Below are positions 27,957 through 32,049 of a stretch of DNA of 64,000 nt, one piece after another. This stretch comes from Gracilimonas sp. (lineage in GTDB: Bacteria; Bacteroidota; Rhodothermia; Balneolales; Balneolaceae). A program made the position numbers and the translations under genes. Positions within the stretch are counted from its first letter, which is position 1, and each line of letters begins with the position of its first letter. Location: NCBI RefSeq assembly GCF_040218225.1, contig NZ_JAVJQO010000006.1, positions 496,001 to 560,000 on the forward strand, in the 5' to 3' direction. The notes beneath the pieces are model-generated. The model had not been told where the DNA came from. It ran no database searches and saw nothing but the letters and a program-made list of their open reading frames with translations.

Positions 27957-29012
27957 CTAAACTATCTTTTCTAAGGCCTTAAAAAACCGATCATTTTCTG
28001 ATTGGGTACCAATCGTTAGGCGCAAACAATCTTCACAATGCGGTTCATTCCCCCTATAGCGAATAATAACCCCTTCTTCTGCGATTTTTTTATAGATGTC
28101 CACGGCATTTTGAATTTTAAAAAGCACAAAATTGGCATCTGTTGGGTAAACATATTCCACAGCGTCATAAGTAATCAGCTTGTCAATCACCCGCTGCCTT
28201 TCTTCTAAAATAGAATTAATATTCTTGATGATGTTTTCCATATTTGAGAACGCCTGAATTGCTGTTCTCGATGTTAGCTTATTGACATTATATGGAGCCT
28301 TCACTTTCATCATATATGAAATTACTTCCGGATTGGCCATTGCTATTCCAAGACGGATACCGGCCAGCCCAAACGATTTTGACAATGTTTGAAGCACTAC
28401 GAGGTTAGAAAAATCAGCCAGGTTATTGGCAAGACTCCCCTGACGGCTAAAATCGATGTAAGCTTCATCAACAACTACCATTCCCTCAAACCCTTCCAGC
28501 ACTTTAACCACATCAGATATATTCATGCTATTTGCCGTTGGATTGTTGGGAGAGCAAATAAATATAATTTTAGTATTGGGTTGAACCGCTGCCAAAATCT
28601 TTTCTGGCTGAAGCTGAAACCCCTCGGTCAGTAATACTTCATCCACAGCTACATCATTGATGTTGGCCGAGACTTTGTACATCCCATACGTGGGAGGATT
28701 GATAATAACCCGATCTTTGCCAGGATTACAGAAAATCCGGAACAGAAGGTCAATGGCTTCGTCACTCCCAACACCAACAAAGACGTTTTCCCTGTTTACC
28801 TTTCGAAAAGCAGCGATATGTTCACGCAGCTCTTCCTGATAAGGCATTGGATAACGGTTCAGTTCGAAGTTATCCTCAAAAGGCGCGCCAAAACTATTCT
28901 CATTGGCATCCAATAAAATTCCTTTATCAAAATCATCTCTCGCGCTTCGATAAGGCTTGAGATTCCTGATGTTATCGCGGACTAAGCCGTCTATGTTTAT
29001 TTGTTTGTTCAT
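27957..29012 (-). CDS. hisC: Histidinol-phosphate aminotransferase
   Basis: 351 residues, PLP-dependent fold type I. Features: LDANENSFG near the start, FICSPNNPTAN, DEAYIDFS, and the lysine in LQTLSKSFGLAGIRLG that binds PLP. It converts imidazole-acetol phosphate to histidinol phosphate with glutamate. It lies between hisD and hisB with short gaps (48 and 52 bases). Confidence 0.95.
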   Translation of the reverse strand: MNKQINIDGLVRDNIRNLKPYRSARDDFDKGILLDANENSFGAPFEDNFELNRYPMPYQEELREHIAAFRKVNRENVFVGVGSDEAIDLLFRIFCNPGKDRVIINPPTYGMYKVSANINDVAVDEVLLTEGFQLQPEKILAAVQPNTKIIFICSPNNPTANSMNISDVVKVLEGFEGMVVVDEAYIDFSRQGSLANNLADFSNLVVLQTLSKSFGLAGIRLGIAMANPEVISYMMKVKAPYNVNKLTSRTAIQAFSNMENIIKNINSILEERQRVIDKLITYDAVEYVYPTDANFVLFKIQNAVDIYKKIAEEGVIIRYRGNEPHCEDCLRLTIGTQSENDRFFKALEKIV

Positions 29013-29060: not shown

Positions 29061-30347
29061 TTATTCTAAATCTTTTAGCCTGATACTCACGGCATTTTTA
29101 TGAGCCTGAAGCTTTTCAAGCTCTGCAAGTTTTTCTACTGTTGGTCCAAGATTTCGTAATCCTTCTTCGCTGAGCGCCTGCATGGTTACTGATTTCTGGA
29201 AAGCAGCCAGGTTCACGCCACTGTACATCCGGGCATACCCATAGGTAGGCAGTGTATGATTAGTACCGGATGCATAATCGCCCACGCTCTCTGGAGTCAG
29301 TTGTCCTAAAAATACGGAACCCGCATTGATAACCTTATCAACCTGATCTTCGGCATTTTCAATATTCACAATTAAATGTTCCGGAGCATATTGGTTTGAA
29401 AAATCAAATGCTTCCTTCAAGCCTTCCACTTCCAATATGAAACTATTGTCCAGAGCTTTTTCAGCTATTTCTTTTCTTGGAAGCTCATTCAGCTGTGCGG
29501 CTAACTCCTGTTCCAATGTATCTATATCAAAACCTGAAACAGCCACTAATACCACCTGACTGTCTGTACCATGCTCAGCCTGTGAAAGTAAATCTGCTGC
29601 CACATAAGCCGGATTTGCCTGTCCATCTGCAATTACCAAAACCTCAGAAGGGCCGGCCGGCATATCAATACTAATCTGTGCCTCAGAATTTTGAAGGATC
29701 ATTTTTGCAGCCGTCACATACTGATTACCCGGCCCAAAAATCTTATCGACCTTGGGCACTGATTTTGTACCCATTGCCATTGCCGCTACAGCTTGTGCCC
29801 CCCCTGCTTTTAGTATGATATCAACCCCGGCTTTTTGGGCTATGTAAATGATTTCCGGAGCAACGCTTCCATCTTTACGCGGAGGCGTGGCCAGAACTTT
29901 GGTTGTACAACCGGCAATCATAGCCGGAATGGTTAGCATCATGGCTGTTGATGGTAGAACCGCTGTTCCTCCGGGCACATAAAACCCAACCCTTTCAATA
30001 GGCCGTGCTACTTTCATACATCGAACCCCCGGCATGGTTTCCACTTCAACAGGAAAAGGAATCTGCGCTTTGTGAAACCTGAAAATATTATCAAATGCCG
30101 TATCTATTGCATCTTTAACCGTTTTTGAAATGGTGATTTGCTGTTCCATTGGATTGAAGCAAACGTCATCCAAATTTACACCATCAAATTGCTTTGTGTA
30201 TTTTTTGAGAGCTTGATCTCCTTCCTTTTCAACTGCATCTAGAATGGGCTGAACCGTTTGAAAGATAGAGGTGAAATCAATCTTTGGGCGCCTGGTCAGC
30301 GATTGGATTCTTTCTTTTGATAAATCTGAATGCGTATAAGTCTTCAT
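29061..30347 (-). CDS. hisD: Histidinol dehydrogenase
   Basis: 428 residues. The family signature is intact: [63 protein letters not shown] and the C-terminal [26 protein letters not shown]. Zinc-dependent, it catalyses the last two NAD-linked steps from histidinol to histidine. It follows hisG by 62 bases. Confidence 0.96.
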
Positions 30348-30409: not shown

Positions 30410-31291
30410 TTATAAAATCATGCTTTCAATTGGCAGCATCACAATATCTGATGCCCCGGCTTCTTTAAGTTCTTCCATCACCGTCCAAAATTTTTCAAGG
30501 GGAATCACTGTATGTATGGCAACCATATCATTTTCCGCTAACGGCATTACCGTCGGACTTTTCATCGATGGAATAATCTCCTTAATCTTTTCAACATCCG
30601 CTGTAGATGCATTCATCATAATGTAGCGGCTTTTAGCAGCTTTTTGATATCCATCCATACGAACCAAGAATCGCTCAATAAGCTCTTTCTTACCTGGCGA
30701 AAGTTCTTTATTAGTTCGGATAAGCTGTGTTTGTGAATGAAGAATCGTATCCAGCTCTACCAGTCCGTTTGCTTTCAGCGTGCCACCACTGGAAACCAGA
30801 TCAACGATGGCATCAGCGACTTTAAGCTGGGGAGCAATTTCTACCGCTCCCGAAATTTCAACAATCTGAATATTAATGCCTCGTTCTTCAAAAAACTGGC
30901 GGGTTAGATTAGGATAGCTTGTTGCTACTTTTTTCCCTTCAAAATCCTGGGCTGTCTGAATATCTCCATCTTTAGGAGCTGCTAGAGACAGCCGGCACTT
31001 TCCATATTGAAGGTCTCTTATCGGAGTTACATCTGCTCCGGTTTCCCGGGTTTCGTTGGCTCCTACAAAGCCCAGATCACACACACCATCCTGCACATAT
31101 TCTGGGATATCATCGTCGCGAAGCAATAAAAGCTCCACGTCAAAATTGCGGGTTTTAACAATCAGGTTCCGTTTGTAGTTATCAAACTCAATACCAATGC
31201 CCTCCAATAAGTCAATGGTTTTATCAGTCAAACGACCGCTTTTTTGAATTGCAATACGTAAAGAGGTTGAAGAATCTTTTGTTCTGTTCAT
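30410..31291 (-). CDS. hisG: ATP phosphoribosyltransferase, long form
   Basis: 293 residues: catalytic domain (RIAIQKSGRLTDKTIDLLEGIGI, GANETRETGADV, DAIVDLVSSGGTLKANGLVEL) plus a C-terminal ~75-residue ACT-like regulatory domain (SPTVMPLAENDMVAIHTVIPLEKFW). The long form is usually feedback-inhibited by histidine and needs no HisZ. It is the first gene of the operon, 60 bases after a histidine-rich leader peptide, so transcription is likely histidine-controlled as well. Confidence 0.95.
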   Translation of the reverse strand: MNRTKDSSTSLRIAIQKSGRLTDKTIDLLEGIGIEFDNYKRNLIVKTRNFDVELLLLRDDDIPEYVQDGVCDLGFVGANETRETGADVTPIRDLQYGKCRLSLAAPKDGDIQTAQDFEGKKVATSYPNLTRQFFEERGINIQIVEISGAVEIAPQLKVADAIVDLVSSGGTLKANGLVELDTILHSQTQLIRTNKELSPGKKELIERFLVRMDGYQKAAKSRYIMMNASTADVEKIKEIIPSMKSPTVMPLAENDMVAIHTVIPLEKFWTVMEELKEAGASDIVMLPIESMIL

Positions 31292-31351
31292 GAAATCAGT
31301 AAGTAATAAGAATTAGAAAAAATAGGTAGAAAATGGTCAGAAAAGGTGCAA

Positions 31352-31438
31352 TTAATGCACATGAATATGATGATGTCCGCGATGAGCATGATGGACATCT
31401 CCAGAAAGATGATGGATATGTAGTAATAGTTCTTTCAT
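31352..31438 (-). CDS. hisL: his operon leader peptide
   Basis: ATG at 31438, TAA at 31352-31354, 28 residues, of which 11 are His, all encoded by CAT. His residues are at positions 7, 9, 10, 16, 17, 19, 22, 23, 24, 26 and 28; the peptide begins MKELLLHIHH and ends HHHIHVH. It ends 60 bases before the hisG ATG on the same strand and starts right after a good promoter. This is the hallmark of attenuation leader peptides. Within the RNA, GATGTCC/GGACATC can form a 7-bp stem (31372-31399) inside the peptide and GTGCA/TGCAC a 5-bp stem over the stop codon, followed by CTTTTC; I do not see a classical strong terminator. Confidence 0.8.
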   Translation of the reverse strand: MKELLLHIHHLSGDVHHAHRGHHHIHVH

Positions 31439-31443
31439 TGGTT

Positions 31444-31475
31444 CAAATATAGGCAAAGCTTTCTCACCCGGTCAA
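31444..31475 (-). promoter_or_regulatory. Promoter of the his operon, TTG-N21-TATATTTG
   Basis: On the minus strand TTG (31473-31475), 21 bases, TATATTTG (31444-31451), an exact match to the Bacteroidota TAnnTTTG -7 box. Transcription would begin within about 6 bases, at or just before the leader ATG 31438, so the leader mRNA may be leaderless. The same TTG-N21 spacing is found before tRNA-Leu and pruA. Confidence 0.7.
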
Positions 31476-31593
31476 CTGTTTTATTCATTTTTATAATTTG
31501 GTGACTAAACTGCACAGGCTCCTTAATTCGTTCACTTTAAGACGTAAACTTTTTATATGTATGTGGTGTTAAACCTGTAAAAAAGGAATCACT

Positions 31594-32049
31594 ATGTACC
31601 ATTCTGTCTATTTTTTAATGCTTATTTTATTCTCTTTGGGAATCACCAATATACACGCTCAGGATTTTGAGAATTTTGATCTCAATGACTATAAATGGGA
31701 AAACAGAATTTTAATCGTCTTTTCTCCCAATACATTTAACGCTGATTACCAAAACCAGAGTAATGAGCTACAGAAAGCAGAATCGGGTGTAAAGGAAAGA
31801 GACCTTGAAGTGTTCTATGCATTAAAGCAAAGCAGTGCCTCAGCCAAGGGGCAGATATTACCTGAAGCTGTAACTCAAAATTTAAGAGCTCAGTTTAATG
31901 TCTCCCCGTCCGACTTCACTACCATTCTGATTGGTAAAGATGGAACGGAGAAACTAAGATCAGACGAGTCCCTTTCAACTAAAAAACTGTTTGAGGAAAT
32001 TGATTCCATGCCCATGCGCAAGCTGGAGATGAAGAATGATGGTGGTTAA
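31594..32049 (+). CDS. DUF4174 protein, secreted
   Basis: 151 residues with a signal peptide (GITNIHAQ) and a thioredoxin-like DUF4174 domain beginning YKWENRILIVFSP and containing FTTILIGKDGTEKLRSDE. There is no CxxC, so it is not a thiol oxidoreductase. Its function is unknown. Single gene in a divergent arrangement with the his operon. Confidence 0.78.
   Translation: MYHSVYFLMLILFSLGITNIHAQDFENFDLNDYKWENRILIVFSPNTFNADYQNQSNELQKAESGVKERDLEVFYALKQSSASAKGQILPEAVTQNLRAQFNVSPSDFTTILIGKDGTEKLRSDESLSTKKLFEEIDSMPMRKLEMKNDGG

Follow-up and report, generated by a model that had tools for sequence, protein, structure and literature searches.

How does a cell read out a histidine signal at a his operon that is preceded by a His-codon leader peptide and lacks the usual RNA stop signal? 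This question was raised by a Gracilimonas locus on the minus strand of the window (i.e., the whole 64,000-nt stretch of DNA that was analyzed), where a short open reading frame (ORF) lies ahead of three histidine biosynthesis genes.

31438..31352, minus strand: His-rich leader peptide ORF; 28 codons, 11 His; ATG at 31438-31436, stop codon TAA at 31354-31352
30410..31291, minus strand: hisG, ATP phosphoribosyltransferase; TIGR00070 (205 bits) and TIGR03455, both above the cut-off
29061..30347, minus strand: hisD, histidinol dehydrogenase; TIGR00069, above the cut-off
27957..29012, minus strand: hisC, histidinol-phosphate transaminase; TIGR01141, above the cut-off

An initial annotation had described a 28-residue ORF with 11 CAT codons located 60 bases before hisG. 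We confirmed this ORF and assigned it to the minus strand. Its product is MKELLLHIHHLSGDVHHAHRGHHHIHVH (11 His among 28 residues, every His codon being CAT), and hisG starts at 31291, 60 nt past the leader stop codon, with hisD and hisC downstream on the same strand. On the basis of the sequence comparisons presented below, we consider it likely that the leader peptide controls the hisG-hisD-hisC operon and that an intrinsic terminator is not the means. In the absence of such a stop signal, the cell would have to read the histidine signal out otherwise.

The nearest named hisG was that of Gracilimonas amylolytica (91% identical), and other near hisG records were titled Balneola, Aliifodinibius, Fodinibius, Rhodohalobacter, or Balneolaceae. 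The divergent neighbor of the his leader is a 151-amino-acid ORF (31594-32049, plus strand) with no NCBIfam match.

Over the whole window, the leader contained 10 His in 20 codons, compared with a maximum of 6 in the other stop-free 20-codon stretches of the six frames. hisG was present in 121 of 128 genomes of the order, and we compared the regions upstream of 117 hisG loci across families f1 to f5, f1 being the family of the window, which was taken as Balneolaceae on the basis of record titles; a few records with such titles belong to other families. Of 92 f1 genomes, 5 had no hisG match and those with partial matches (G028, G050, and G070) were left out; the resulting 84 genomes gave 85 loci (two from G077). 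The criterion of at least 4 His in 20 codons was passed by 81 f1 loci, and L195 was set aside. Loss of the His run in close relatives, which the initial annotation had named as counting against its reading, was not what we found; a His-rich ORF was kept before hisG in 80 of the 85 loci, with a stop codon that begins 57 to 130 nt upstream of hisG. Given this conservation and the unique His density in the window, the leader ORF is not a chance occurrence. The loci without a leader were L196, L197, and L198 (hisG, 41 to 43% identical) and L136, which is cut at a contig end and whose genome carries the leader on its other contig. L195 (genome G036) has a divergent hisG (44% identical) and a His-rich ORF with a classic terminator; its hisG region was perhaps acquired from elsewhere.

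A His-rich leader was also found in 8 of 10 loci in f2, 3 of 4 in f3, the single locus in f4, and 2 of 17 in f5. L161 (f2) passes the 4-His criterion but, at a distance of 270 nt, was excluded, and L162 and L169 were omitted because the start codon was not found. The upstream DNA of L102 is the same as that of L190 (f5), although the L102 record is titled like Balneolaceae.

The leader peptides diverge strongly between genera (e.g., VNRKNLHTTHLHHGVHHLHQGHHHA, VKNKRLHNAHHLHHGLHHGHHHVH, and MQKQSLHISFHSHLHHGGWHRQ). The His residues are spread over approximately 20 codons with no single fixed block, and neither their spacing nor the remaining residues are conserved. Both His codons are in use across the f1 leaders (CAT, 485; CAC, 171). 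Thus, the peptide changes fast while the His codons, the promoter, and a promoter-to-start gap of 4 to 5 nt stay. Loci of the same genus are related, and per-genus counts are the fairer figures. These comparisons point to a conserved His-codon leader peptide that is probably near-leaderless, the latter on the basis of the following promoter elements.

31444..31475, minus strand: promoter; TTG at 31475-31473, N21, and TATATTTG at 31451-31444; box conserved in the family
31438..31439, minus strand: predicted transcription start at 31439, 1 nt ahead of the leader start codon; placed from the box position in Flavobacterium

The TATATTTG box ends 5 nt before the leader ATG. Promoter-like sites were not in excess here (1 found; mean, 2.1 in shuffles), so the promoter call rests on conservation. 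The promoter scan placed 79 of the 80 loci. A TAnnTTTG-like box with a gap of 4 or 5 nt to the chosen leader start (GTG, 44; ATG, 30; TTG, 5) was present in 64 of these 79 loci, and the TTG-N21-TATATTTG promoter that had been proposed directly before the ORF was thereby found in the window with its box and gap kept in the family. Boxes scoring at least 5.5 were located ahead of 61% of leader starts versus 2.9% of 1,458 start-like triplets further upstream, a comparison in which the in-frame start was picked by the best box, biasing the observed score above the null. In Flavobacterium, the box is positioned at -12 to -5 (PMC9723704). By this spacing, the transcript is predicted to start 0 to 1 nt upstream of the leader start codon across the family, and this near-leaderless geometry would agree with the earlier suggestion of a possibly leaderless mRNA. 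As background, leaderless mRNAs account for 5.5% in Flavobacterium psychrophilum (PMC9723704), and 5' untranslated regions of <10 nt for approximately 3.7% in Bacteroides thetaiotaomicron (PMC7366714).

The trp leaders of the same cells offer a built-in control for the missing terminator. We identified trpE leaders with Trp codons in 18 genomes of the order (15 in f1 and one each in f2, f3, and f4), each with a Trp codon block (WWW in 16 and WW in 2). All 18 have a strong terminator; 17 were detected by the scan (-15.8 to -22.4 kcal/mol), and that of L210, where the best scanned hairpin lies upstream of the trp leader, was recognized by eye. The scan covered 390 nt at trp loci and extended from 40 nt before the leader stop codon to 60 nt into hisG at his loci. 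With the same scan, only 1 of the 85 f1 his loci reached -13 kcal/mol or better (i.e., L195, with its divergent hisG), and 12 of the 85 reached -5 kcal/mol. Classic terminators followed 3 of the 8 f2 his leaders (L187, -17.0; L191, -15.4; L184, -14.0). The three f3 leaders and the f4 leader showed no terminator at -5 or better; the lack is therefore not confined to f1. In other Bacteroidota, 15 of 22 upstream ORFs with at least 4 His, some of which are probably frames of other genes, had terminators at -10 or better. Intrinsic terminators are thus used for trp in the same cells and for his in relatives, whereas the f1 his leaders lack strong ones. The absence of a strong terminator hairpin after the leader, previously remarked on for this locus, is a family-wide trait that contrasts with the trp leaders. 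In the genome of the window, the leader upstream of trpE (L203, contig C8) encodes Trp codons (MRKQIVQLNAWWWPVVRNNSGSRM) and has a textbook antiterminator and terminator.

The his leader resembles the gamma-proteobacterial his attenuator (Rfam RF00514, His_leader) in placing a His-codon leader directly before hisG and in ribosome stalling as the likely sensor. Unlike that type, the f1 leaders have no terminator hairpin with a U tract, their His codons are spread, they are near-leaderless by prediction, and the leader of the window has no Rfam match. No leader or riboswitch was matched in the window at the gathering score or in 31250-31520 at a relaxed score; the only Rfam matches in the window were a tRNA elsewhere and one at chance level, and the leader matched neither a T-box or other riboswitch family nor RF00514. 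The whole leader of the window folded no better than shuffles (z, -0.59). Because the terminator is missing, we did not file the locus in the classic his leader family, although its sensing side would work alike. The trp leaders of the same genomes (L201 to L218) share with the his leaders a peptide that begins a few nucleotides past a TAnnTT-type box and a predicted stem between the last leader codons and the RNA past the stop codon; they differ in their Trp codon block, their strong terminators, and a spacer that is not G-poor. The His-codon leaders of other Bacteroidota (e.g., L296 and L302) also lie before hisG in the same phylum but encode a short peptide whose His residues form one compact run, and a strong terminator follows; L296 matches RF00514 below the gathering score (33.7 of 49 bits).

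Two stems had been proposed in the leader, one covering the last codons and the other inside the ORF.

31346..31360, minus strand: stop-spanning stem GTGCA-TTAAT-TGCAC with the stop codon in the loop; assessed by an across-genus swap test
31372..31399, minus strand: GATGTCC/GGACATC stem inside the ORF; present, unsupported as a selected element in the genus of the window

The mean best stop-spanning stem scored -7.66, versus -6.21 (SD, 0.25) when the arms were swapped between genera and -5.49 (SD, 0.20) when the 3' side was shuffled; in both cases, 0 of 100 replicates were as good. Real stems beat the swap in 14 of 18 genera (13 of 18 in a wider search), compared with 7 to 10 of 18 for five shifted controls, one of which weakens the test with a mean gain of 0.94 versus 1.43 at the real place. 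The 5-bp stem of the window is thus supported across genera by the swap test. Variants elsewhere include ACGCA/TGCGT, ATGCGC/GCGCAT, CATTGC/GCAATG, and GGGCA/TGCCC. The stem has only 4 to 6 bp in many genera and, in genus g19, reaches 11 to 13 bp at 5 of 6 loci (type GGGGATTTGTGC/GCGCAAATCCCC). In trp antiterminators, the last leader codons pair with the RNA past the stop codon (at least 7 bp in 13 of 18), and the predicted his stem shares this topology; the f1 his leaders contain no rival hairpin for it to exclude. No U tract was detected past the 64 stems analyzed (T fraction, 0.44 in the next 8 nt versus 0.42 in the spacer), at least 6 T of 8 being found in 8 of 64. In genus g3 (Fodinibius/Aliifodinibius type; L022, L025, L027, L028, L031, L049 to L051, and L112 to L115), the leader is shorter (4 to 6 His) and ends in a GGCGGT/ACCGTC stem; in most cases, another hairpin follows the stop codon.

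The 7-bp stem inside the ORF is present as described, but it received no support beyond coding content in the genus of the window. We rejected it as a selected structure, given that its stability did not exceed that of synonymous recodings (mean z, +0.41; n = 9). Over all 79 loci, the mean z for intra-ORF stems was -0.46 (20 below -1 and 1 above 1), with g11 (-0.72) and g19 (-1.3) among the genera responsible for the negative mean.

The composition of the RNA between the leader and hisG is also distinctive.

31292..31351, minus strand: pyrimidine-rich, nearly G-free spacer; defined by composition

The last 50 nt before hisG contained 4.1% G and 68% pyrimidine (81 loci), versus 16% and 51% in 177 other upstream regions. 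Control genes with their own TAnnTTTG promoter numbered only 11 (G, 16%), and we therefore chose f5 hisG without a leader and trpE as better controls. In the last 35 nt, G and pyrimidine amounted to 3.1% and 66% with a leader (n = 80), 5.0% and 57% for the f2 leaders (n = 8), 13.9% and 48% before f5 hisG without a leader (n = 15), and 19.0% and 50% before trpE (n = 17; the start was taken as the first ATG of the open frame, which was present in 17 of 18). G drops from 10 to 16% in the first 24 nt past the stop codon to 1 to 4% beyond 32 nt, and the length of the spacer varies among f1 loci. The C-over-G excess of the his leaders lies in the top 4 to 5% of background segments, which as a Rho signal is suggestive, not striking. 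Low G need not mean Rho, because the f2 leaders, some with classic terminators, are also G-poor.

By analogy with established leader-peptide logic, we propose the following stall-and-stem mechanism. Judging from the promoter spacing, transcription would begin at the leader start codon or a base or two before it, and translation of the leader would set in at the 5' end of the mRNA. A shortage of charged tRNA-His would slow the ribosome on the His codons, and the last leader codons could pair with the bases past the stop codon, so that the stop-spanning stem forms and allows the operon to be read. With ample histidine, the ribosome would reach the stop codon, break the stem, and leave. Given that a spacer with almost no G hardly folds into a rival hairpin, the off state would be naked pyrimidine-rich RNA, on which Rho would most likely terminate transcription, either ahead of hisG or in its early part. 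Rho is encoded in the genome. Its action on the naked spacer is our first guess for the output, one that we hold as possible and clearly short of even confidence. Against this mechanism, His codons occur both upstream and downstream of the position at which a stalled ribosome would still permit the stop-spanning stem, a distribution not expected of a clean switch. As a tentative classification, to which we give not quite even confidence, the Balneolaceae-wide leader may represent an amino-acid attenuator that keeps an antiterminator-type stem, has no intrinsic terminator, is leaderless and often GTG started, and gates by the ribosome position the action of Rho or an RNase on the G-free pyrimidine spacer, with trp in the same cells staying under textbook attenuation.

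Two further candidates were set aside. Reinitiation at hisG past the leader stop codon would reduce hisG output during starvation. The idea that a second Rho-like gene is the special factor was rejected, because each of the 16 Balneolales genomes tested (two of f5) and 2 of 3 outgroups carry such a gene. The copy in the genome of the window (L250; contig C4, 421511-422611) matches TIGR00767 at 408 bits, below the 509-bit cut-off, and the G014 copy has a stop codon inside the match.

The main rival to Rho is stall-dependent mRNA stability, for which ermC provides a precedent and which we regard as unlikely. A ribosome slowed on the His codons would shield the 5' end of the his mRNA from decay, and with plentiful histidine this end and the U-rich spacer would be open to RNases. 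Such protection would suit the predicted near-leaderless geometry, which would place the ribosome at the 5' end, and would require no terminator and no fixed stall place, in keeping with His codons spread over about 20 positions; however, it leaves unexplained both the stop-spanning stem and the different build of the trp leader in the same genomes. The stem itself might be a weak intrinsic terminator or an RNA polymerase pause site. In the window, the sequence CTTTTC comes after GTGCA-TTAAT-TGCAC, the scan gave 1 terminator-like site versus 0.1 expected, and the 12 f1 loci at -5 kcal/mol are consistent with this idea. The T fraction past the stem, which is not enriched in the family, speaks against it, and it has the wrong sign for a biosynthetic operon, because a ribosome near the stop codon would prevent the stem; we consider it improbable.

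We assign a similarly low probability to translational attenuation, in which the position of the leader ribosome opens or closes the hisG start region. This output is known for some attenuators (PMC9413887), and E. coli toiL-topAI combines it with Rho (PMC12121999). The initial annotation had offered ribosome-position control of hisG translation as an example of a different mechanism, but the predicted unpaired probability of the hisG start hardly changes in folding (0.64 for the full leader, 0.66 with the ribosome at the stop codon, and 0.64 with the ribosome further up), falls below 0.5 in only 5% of 80 loci, and is accompanied by a spacer almost without G and variable in length. Overall, that annotation was supported for the leader, the promoter, the predicted near-leaderless geometry, the lack of a strong terminator, and the 5-bp stem, and was not for the 7-bp stem and the hiding of the hisG start. 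Finally, many His in one short peptide could indicate a nonregulatory ORF with a functional, perhaps metal-binding, product. This we find very hard to credit, given the unconserved His spacing and remaining residues, the Trp-codon counterparts of trpE and Ile/Leu-rich ones of some ilvB genes, and the His-codon leaders with terminators before hisG in other Bacteroidota.

Our first guess for the output, a leader ribosome that gates Rho, has relatives among regulatory uORFs. A Rho-linked example is tnaC. In E. coli toiL-topAI, the ribosome position on a short uORF governs premature Rho termination, as proposed here (PMC12121999). Rho-linked uORFs sense antibiotics or an inducer, however, and the role of Rho in the f1 his leaders is a proposal. 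Leader-peptide attenuation in F. psychrophilum likewise concerns amino-acid biosynthesis in Bacteroidota with the same promoter type but is described as transcriptional elongation control (PMC9723704); strong clues of attenuation are named there for a flavobacterium, and a terminator-less his type was not found described in the available text of that paper. His attenuators have been reported in 17 Firmicutes genomes (PMC9413887), adding to an earlier study from 2010 (PMC2965389), and the Bacteroid-trp motif is in Rfam (table entry, PMC2864571). Our literature search, whose coverage left most subscription journals outside, found no terminator-less his leader and no report of attenuation in Balneolota.

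Across a whole bacterial family, the textbook his attenuator thus seems to have its sensing half retained and joined to an output half of another kind, in a phylum that has seen little work on leader-peptide control or leaderless translation. The change of attenuator output (i.e., intrinsic terminator, Rho, RNA decay, or translation) becomes directly testable here. Short Ile/Leu-rich ORFs were also observed upstream of ilvB in four genomes (L219 to L222; three of f1 and one of f3). Past the ORF, L220 and L221 carry a CCAGAGGT/ACCTCTGG stem with no U tract, and these two leaders are perhaps another terminator-less attenuator.
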